A stretch of 64,000 nucleotides of DNA. It comes from Oerskovia jenensis (GTDB lineage Bacteria > Actinomycetota > Actinomycetes > Actinomycetales > Cellulomonadaceae). Location of the stretch: positions 186,001 to 250,000 of the forward strand of contig NZ_JAFBBO010000001.1 in the NCBI RefSeq assembly GCF_016907235.1. Reading direction: 5' to 3'. Below the pieces are notes generated by a model, which did no database searches, was not told the DNA's origin, and saw only the letters and a list, made by a program, of their open reading frames with translations. Below, one piece after another: positions 56,079 through 57,390 of this stretch. Made by a program: the position numbers and the translations under genes. Positions within the stretch are counted from its first letter, which is position 1, and the number at the start of each line of letters is the position of its first letter.

Positions 56079-56098
56079 GACTCCTCAAGTGGTGGGGC

Positions 56099-56116
56099 TT
56101 GATTCCCACCCATCAA
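56099..56116 (+). promoter_or_regulatory. Operator half 1, TTGAT-N8-ATCAA
   Basis: Palindrome TTGAT-N8-ATCAA. The arms extend outwards to a 10-bp stem GGGGCTTGAT/ATCAAGCCCC (56094-56121), so it may also act as terminator of aroQ. Confidence 0.6.
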
Positions 56117-56126
56117 GCCCCAGCCA

Positions 56127-56155
56127 TTGATCATGAGGGATCAAGCGTCTACCGT
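56127..56155 (+). promoter_or_regulatory. Promoter of the SatD-like gene with operator half 2
   Basis: -35 TTGATC (56127-56132) and -10 TACCGT (56150-56155) with a 17-bp spacer. The same -35 is the left arm of a second TTGAT-N8-ATCAA palindrome (56127-56144), whose centre is 28 bp from that of the first. A factor bound there would block RNA polymerase. The -10 ends 6 nt before the ATG; GGAGGG fills that gap. Confidence 0.7.
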
Positions 56156-56161
56156 GGAGGG

Positions 56162-56776
56162 ATGTTCGTCCTGACCGTGGACCAGAGGGCCAGCACCCGC
56201 CGAGGAGACCTCGTGCCGGAGGTGCTCGCCGCGCTCGCGCCCTTCGACGCGCGGGACGGGATCGTCATCGGCTTCGACCGCACCGTCGGCGACGAGGTCC
56301 AGGCCGTGCTCGACGACGCCGCGCTCGTCGTGGAGATCGTCCTCGCCCTGGGCAGGTGGGGAGGGTGGAGCACGGGCCTCGGCCTCGGGACCGTGCTGCC
56401 CGGCCAGGACGGTCACCTGCCCTCGGCCTCGCGCGAGGCGTCCGGGTCGGCTTTCGTGCACGCCCGGGCCGCGGTCGAGCGGGCCAAGACCCGCCGCACA
56501 CACATCCCGCTCGCGGTCGAGGGGCCGGATCCTGCCGCGGCGGGAGAGGTCGAGGCGCTCCTGCGGCTCCTGCTCGCCGTCGGCGCCCGCCGCACCCCGG
56601 CGGGGTGGGAGGTCGTGGACGCGCTGGCGCGTGTGGGTGGCACCCAGAAGGATGTGGCCCGAGACCTCGGGATCAGCGAGCAGGCCGTGAGCCAACGGCT
56701 GCGCGCGAGCCTGTGGTCCGAGGAATCGGCCGTCCGGCCGGTAGCAACGAGGCTCCTCCAGGAGGCGGACGCATGA
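56162..56776 (+). CDS. SatD-like protein with C-terminal helix-turn-helix
   Basis: A 204-residue protein of the SatD family. The N-terminal part reads [47 protein letters not shown] and [14 protein letters not shown], the pattern I recall for SatD; the C-terminus [20 protein letters not shown] is a clear helix-turn-helix. It probably regulates transcription, and the paired palindromes over its own promoter suggest autoregulation, which is inference. The GDE motif and fold of the N-terminal half hint at ligand binding. The next gene overlaps it by 4 nt. Confidence 0.75.
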
Positions 56777-57390
56777 GCTTCACCACCGGTCTGGCCGTCG
56801 CAGGGGTCGTGCTGGCGACGCTCGTGCTGAGCGTGCTGGGCGGCATGCTCGTGACGCCGTGGGTCCTGCGGGCCGCCGCGCGTCGCTCCGAGGCGGAGGG
56901 CGAGGTCCCACCCGCCCGGGACCCCGGCCCCGTCCCACCGCCGCCCGGACGCGTCGTCCCCGCCGCGGGGGTCGCCACGGCGGCGAGCGCTCCCGTGCCC
57001 CCTCCGCCCGCGGCAGGGCCCCCCGCGCCGGCCCCCGCGGCCTCAGCGCCCACAGGGCCCTCGGCGACGCACGTGCCCGCTGCGCCCGCCCCGGCGACCG
57101 GTGCGACGCCGTCGGACCCTGGCGGGCCCGTGGGCGTCGAAGCCGTCCGGACGCTGCGCGGCGGGACCTGGATCGGGATCCTCGAACGCCTCGCGATCAC
57201 GGGCTGCCTGCTCGCCGGATACCCGGCCGGGATCGCCGTCGTGGTGGCCATCAAGGGCCTCGGGCGCTACCCCGAGCTGCGCGAGCACCCGGTCGGCGCC
57301 GAGCGCTTCCTGATCGGCACGCTCACCTCGATGATCTGGGCAGGTGGGGTCGGACTGCTCGGCGCAGCGATCCTGGGACTCCTCCGGTAG
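56773..57390 (+). CDS. Membrane protein coupled to the SatD-like regulator
   Basis: A 205-residue protein with one N-terminal helix, a Pro/Ala-rich loop of about 90 residues, and two C-terminal hydrophobic segments around [21 protein letters not shown] and [20 protein letters not shown]. The pattern [20 protein letters not shown] between them is probably the functional part; Pfam family unknown to me. ATGA overlap with the SatD-like gene makes translational coupling likely, so the pair may sense and respond to an envelope or metabolite signal. This is inference. Confidence 0.7.

Follow-up and report, generated by a model that had tools for sequence, protein, structure and literature searches.

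Which protein acts on the two identical palindromes that lie over the promoter of the satD-like gene of Oerskovia jenensis, and to what effect? The gene is part of the window (the whole stretch of 64,000 nucleotides that was analysed), where aroQ, the satD-like gene, a membrane-protein gene and efp follow one another in this order, and a preliminary description of this DNA had read the palindromes as a site of autoregulation. At the level of sequence this claim is supported: the palindromes belong to a longer array that is conserved upstream of satD, and the letters of this putative operator vary in step with the recognition helix of the protein encoded beside it. The SatD-like protein is therefore probably an autorepressor that binds an array of half-sites set at 14-bp steps.

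The putative operator array and its conservation

The window contains exactly two copies of the motif TTGAT-N8-ATCAA, at 56099-56116 and 56127-56144, and none is expected by chance. Both copies and the 28 bp between their centres are as first described; with 10.5 bp to the turn, this distance makes 2.67 turns and not nearly three, as had been stated. In the whole genome the motif is found in three places, against two for a reversed control, so that a lone palindrome is unremarkable and it is the in-register series that stands out. The two palindromes are real, but their description understated the operator, since together they form four of five exact half-sites whose orientation flips at exact 14-bp steps (cores TCAA at 56085, TTGA at 56099, TCAA at 56113, TTGA at 56127 and TCAA at 56141). 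A sixth in-register site at 56155 is degenerate (TGGA, one mismatch to the TTGA core). When the 110 bp upstream were shuffled 20,000 times by dinucleotide, four or more half-sites in register never arose, and three arose twice. The features of the locus are as follows, with negative positions counted from the start codon.

56085-56089, minus strand: half-site 0, TCAAG (CTTGA on the minus strand), exact and in the 14-bp register; position near -77 weakly conserved
56098-56102, plus strand: half-site 1, CTTGA, exact and in register; position -64 to -60 conserved
56113-56117, minus strand: half-site 2, TCAAG, exact and in register; position -49 to -45 conserved
56126-56130, plus strand: half-site 3, ATTGA, with TTGA exact and in register; overlaps the -35 box; position -36 to -32 conserved
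56141-56145, minus strand: half-site 4, TCAAG, within the promoter spacer, exact and in register; position -21 to -17 conserved
56154-56158, plus strand: half-site 5, GTGGA, degenerate (CTTGA in many relatives), one core mismatch; overlaps the end of the -10 box; position -8 to -4 conserved
56127-56132, plus strand: -35 box TTGATC, coinciding with half-site 3
56150-56155, plus strand: -10 box TACCGT (TANNNT), at -12 to -7, conserved over 81 promoters
56162-56776, plus strand: satD-like gene, 204 aa; predicted class III cyclase/GGDEF-like domain at about residues 1-143 and C-terminal helix-turn-helix (HTH) with recognition helix 173-183
56773-57390, plus strand: gene of a membrane protein of 205 aa, overlapping satD by an ATGA; the C-terminal region is conserved, and the protein belongs to no Pfam family

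As had been described, the second palindrome holds the -35 box, and the -10 box follows at a spacing of 17 bp. The promoter had also been called a good one, which overstates its quality: a scan with the E. coli consensus returned no site. The -10 box fits TANNNT, a type seen in actinobacterial promoters, and over the 81 aligned promoters its T, A and last T are conserved at 0.86, 0.96 and 0.96. The ATG at 56162 begins only 6 nt past the -10 box (the gap is 6-7 bases in 80 of the 81), and for this reason the satD-like mRNA is likely leaderless.

Conservation upstream of orthologues, on which the preliminary description had made its proposal depend, was assessed in 80 named loci, the best 80 of 152 chosen by protein similarity; among these, the closest relatives of the window protein come from five Oerskovia species (87-95% identity). 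Counting as an array any series of at least two TTG/CAA half-sites at a 14-bp distance, we find one upstream of the SatD-like gene in 72 of the 80, the eight loci without it belonging to Myceligenerans, Actinotalea, Isoptericola, Timonella and Kocuria (one each) and Brachybacterium (three). As the array is retained in 28 of the 29 named loci that have neither aroQ nor efp in the examined stretch, it travels with satD and not with the neighbourhood. In a gap-free alignment of the 80 upstream regions and the window, CTTGA/TCAAG recurs at -64, -49, -36, -21 and -8 and more weakly near -77, with almost no information in the loops between.

SatD-like proteins are encoded in 150 of 248 genomes of the order. 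A wider set of 178 distinct proteins was compiled from the 80 named and 110 further loci of the order (one of the 190 was dropped, and merging identical proteins reduced 189 to 178). Over the whole analysis two loci, L160 and L251, were left out because they showed no start codon. In the set of 178 the array caller returned an array in 129 loci. Concordant TTGN/N'CAA pairs number 307 at the 14-bp step, 17 at 13 bp and 10 at 15 bp; no other step between 6 and 29 bp has more than 14, and about 1-2 are obtained in mononucleotide shuffles. Three or more half-sites in register are present in 113 of the 178, compared with 2 of 3,560 dinucleotide shuffles, and the positions relative to the start codon hold mostly within one base (TTG at -63, -35 and -7; CAA at -77, -49 and -21). 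The constancy of the 14-bp step argues for contact between the bound subunits.

The array also appears specific to this promoter. In the 4.45-Mb genome, TTGA-N10-TCAA-N10-TTGA with up to one mismatch was found only at the satD-like promoter, and its reversed control nowhere. The exact triple is present in 25 of 119 genomes of the order and, by comparison of coordinates, lies just upstream of satD in 20 of these; five genomes (G022, G029, G043, G088 and G115) have it only away from satD. Two genomes with a satD array carry one further triple each (G111:C5:28310-28341 and G053:C1:513212-513243), possibly by chance. As the reversed control gives four forward and five reverse matches in the 119 genomes, the seven places away from satD are close to chance level. 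The third genomic TTGAT-N8-ATCAA (C1:3740511-3740528, or L003:1501-1518, in G000) was considered as a second target and rejected, given its GTTTGAT/ATCAAAC context outside any in-register triple; it is perhaps the site of another regulator.

Covariation of operator letters and recognition helix

For the 129 loci with an array, operators called from the DNA without reference to the proteins were compared with the residues of the recognition helix. Residue 173 is associated with the majority base at position 5 of the half-site, which is A for E173 (40/41), P173 (25/27), K173 (23/25) and A173 (9/10), T for Q173 (13/15) and C for R173 (5/5). The corresponding operator words are CTTGA (E, P, A or K173), CTTGT (Q173) and CTTGC (R173), and in K173 loci base 6 is C in 21 of 25. 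Residue 178 is associated with base 1: C for Q178 (91/94), A178 (4/5) and D178 (4/4), and G for K178 (10/11); R178, N178 and S178 show no clear base-1 preference in these 129 loci. Q174 is found in 127 of these 129 loci and in 37 of the 49 that have no array. In Timonella, where it is replaced by A, the half-sites read GTTAA in an unchanged array geometry, and residue 174 may thus have a role in specificity as well, a suggestion supported by few cases.

The residue rules were formed on loci L011-L200, and the tabulation of the 178 loci is descriptive; the test consists of 64 wider-class loci that were fetched after the rule had been written, leaving out those at least 90% identical to earlier loci. 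Base 5 was predicted correctly from residue 173 in 26 of the 28 test loci with an array, tied in two and wrong in none. For residue 178, Q again went with C in 18 of 20, with two ties. On an IQ-TREE phylogeny of the N-terminal 150 residues of 155 loci, path-disjoint contrasts number five for Q173/T5, four for R173/C5, five for K173/C6 and eight for K or R178/not C1, of which on average 4.2, 4.0, 3.4 and 7.0 agree with the rules and none opposes them. This agreement between operator and helix points to the adjacent protein as the binder.

The 85 loci without a TTG array were searched for other words. In five of them a three-site chain of another word is present in the array geometry, against 0.02 expected; one of the five is a GCTGT chain, whose locus encodes Q173 and R178. 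Inverted 5-mer pairs are two to four times as frequent as expected in the 85 loci over a broad range of gaps (36 observed and 10.5 expected at gap 13, 32 and 9.9 at gap 15, 37 and 8.9 at gap 9, 29 and 9.5 at gap 14), and because of this breadth the pairs are no proof of a 14-bp step, which is seen only in the three-site chains. In 14 loci with a TQQTVSR helix, some of them near-identical, ACAGC/GCTGT pairs in array geometry are the commonest single entry (five loci). Operators of the paralogues in which D7 is replaced by N, and of most loci without Q174, were looked for and not found.

Predicted fold of the SatD-like protein and its membrane partner

The window protein matches PF16264 over residues 34-183 with 23 bits (E 7e-5), below the curated cut-off of 29 bits, and we therefore use the name SatD-like only. 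The family assignment made earlier holds to that extent: 48 of 59 aligned relatives match PF16264 at E 0.01 or better (best 7.1e-12). In 14 control genomes PF16264 had no match. The HTH noted before is present at the C terminus of the predicted fold. The gene pair had been called sensor-type, but the cyclase-like domain had been missed: the N-terminal part is predicted to adopt a class III cyclase/GGDEF-like fold. Residues D7, G43, D44 and E45 are invariant in the 59 relatives, and the predicted structure places D7 on strand 1 and G43-D44-E45 in the hairpin of strands 2 and 3, positions that may correspond to the metal-binding acidic residues of the cyclase/GGDEF fold.

The coupling to a membrane-protein gene, visible in the window as an ATGA overlap at 56773, is conserved. 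Of 256 loci, 226 have the partner gene next to the satD-like gene; the two genes share a strand in 221 of these and lie on opposite strands in five. The partner is absent from 27 loci, and three stretches were too short. With longest-open-reading-frame starts, and counting the window, it overlaps satD in 164 of 220. The five opposite-strand partners lie tail to tail with satD (L088, L120, L124, L128 and L265). The window membrane protein has no Pfam match and a weak NCBIfam match under its cut-off; its C-terminal part may resemble proteins called DUF3307.

Loci that retain D7 have the partner in 225 cases and lack it in nine; among those scored as lacking D7, the partner is present in one (with a misplaced start) and absent in 18 (one or two perhaps with misplaced starts). 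The association gives a Fisher p of 6e-20, a value that is far too strong because the D7-less loci are mainly two clades. The joint loss of D7 and the partner nevertheless suggests joint action of the acidic site and the membrane protein.

The paralogues of family f6 carry N in place of D7 (TINQ), lack the partner and have a different helix, with no operator found (L143, L145, L147, L150, L151, L153, L154, L164, L169, L172 and L190); several genomes hold one such copy alongside an ordinary one. Five proteins of family f11 (L198, L199, L200, L267 and L268) have TQQTVSR helices; they lack both D7 and the partner, and the open reading frame that follows them directly is efp.

Probable autorepression, its alternatives and known systems

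Protein bound at the three gene-proximal half-sites would cover the -35 box and the spacer as well as the end of the -10 box. Since these half-sites overlap the promoter elements, binding should block polymerase, and autorepression is the best reading. A 14-bp step amounts to 1.33 helical turns, so that each dyad would face about 120 degrees away from its neighbour, with the protein wrapped around the DNA. The leading candidates for relief of repression would be a nucleotide that binds the cyclase-like domain and a signal sent by the membrane partner. A fuller picture, tentative and as a whole rather doubtful, joins these elements: a DNA-bound, nucleotide-responsive and possibly still catalytic cyclase-fold protein would place one subunit per 14-bp step, with dyads turned by about 120 degrees so that three steps (42 bp) would complete four turns, the membrane partner would gate assembly, and operators would have diversified under a simple code in three helix positions.

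Several observations weigh against autorepression through this array and code. The caller found no TTG array in 49 of the 178 loci and in 36 of the 64 fetched later, and ten of these 36 carry R173 together with Q174; several of the array-less R173-Q174 loci have CTTGC words mixed with CTTTC. Ten of the 28 test arrays come from a single family, f38, and the independent tests are accordingly fewer than 28. The part of the written rule that paired R178 or N178 with G failed or stayed unclear; in the test set both R loci lack the predicted G. The well-supported branches of a FastTree phylogeny give few of the contrasts above (1, 1, 2 and 5, in the same order), and mutual support on this tree is weak. 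None of the 23 profile matches for the sensor domain is a solved cyclase, and the link to nucleotides thus comes from the fold and not from a sequence profile. Nine loci, finally, retain D7 and have no partner.

The alternative that survives best is that the protein binds the array and activates its own promoter, or toggles between activation and repression. Activators often bind upstream of the -35 box, and half-sites are indeed present there, at about -49, -63 and -77; the best-kept ones, however, lie over the promoter elements themselves (-35 box, spacer and -10 box), where polymerase should be blocked, and we regard activation as unlikely. That another regulator binds the array, with the SatD-like protein merely downstream, is less plausible still. 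The neighbourhood of aroQ and efp is common to 40 of the 80 named loci, but the array persists without these two genes, in 20 of the 25 genomes that contain the exact triple it directly precedes satD, and the operator letters follow the helix of the adjacent protein. A terminator or RNA hairpin of aroQ has hardly any likelihood and was rejected for the array as a whole: the first palindrome, with 10-bp perfect arms (GGGGCTTGAT/ATCAAGCCCC), sits just past the aroQ stop codon, and the RNA around it has a predicted fold of -24 kcal/mol (z -5.6), but a search for a terminator-like T tract near it found none, the array is also present in loci without aroQ, and the spacing, start-codon register and HTH covariation are unexpected of terminators.

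The array would give the family a defined, predicted operator, and a specificity code that lends itself to single-substitution tests, while the sensor fold points to nucleotides. In the literature, of which our search covered a part, we found no operator, ligand, structure or mechanism for SatD-like proteins, in line with the preliminary description, which knew of no operator for the family. The streptococcal SatD shares a related family name through PF16264; it is presented as an acid-resistance family (PMC10326533), satD is essential in transposon studies of some Streptococcus pyogenes strains (PMC11323703), and it is among the small-RNA targets of Streptococcus suis, in one list of which it is called a DNA-binding protein (PMC12005413). 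It is known for acid tolerance and essentiality, and the cited parts of these reports do not describe an operator or mechanism (PMC11323703; PMC12005413).

Among better characterized regulators, the LacI family is closest in its use of the recognition helix, where residues AA-15, AA-16 and AA-20 set specificity, as found through autoregulatory sites (PMC2978694). HTH recognition-helix positions 1, 2 and 6 would thus determine specificity in both, and residues 173 and 178 do covary with bases 5 and 1. In the cited account LacI differs in its hinge helix, sensor domain and base preferences, and no alternating array is part of it (PMC2978694); LacI HTH and ligand-domain profiles are absent among the 19 Pfam matches of our protein at E up to 1. 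The PucR-type MabR likewise combines a GGDEF-like fold with an HTH, but the HTH is another one, an N-terminal globin-like domain is added and the GGDEF fold is described as lacking catalytic motifs (PMC11617747), whereas D7, G43, D44 and E45 are invariant in the SatD-like relatives. The PucR/CdaR profile PF13556 reached E 0.14 (12.4 bits against a cut-off of 27), and the GGDEF-like profile is absent among the matches.

Like the proposed system, NrdR is a repressor that senses nucleotides and occupies repeated boxes in oligomeric form (PMC12051234; see also PMC9110341 and PMC12176259). It consists of a Zn-ribbon and an ATP-cone, neither of which is among the Pfam matches of the window protein at E up to 1, and according to the cited text it prefers integer turns between boxes (PMC12051234), in contrast to the 14 bp, or 1.33 turns, between SatD-like dyads. 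BldC is an actinobacterial regulator that also multimerises along repeated sites, but these are head-to-tail direct repeats, and a sensor domain is not part of the description cited (PMC5859096), whereas SatD-like sites alternate in orientation. A rigid, alternating 14-bp array with non-integral phasing is an unusual operator geometry, and regulator-operator pairs of predictable specificity could become tools. Autoregulated one-component regulators are already known; what is new is that this sensor and HTH are combined with a rigid array of alternating sites that follows a code of its own.
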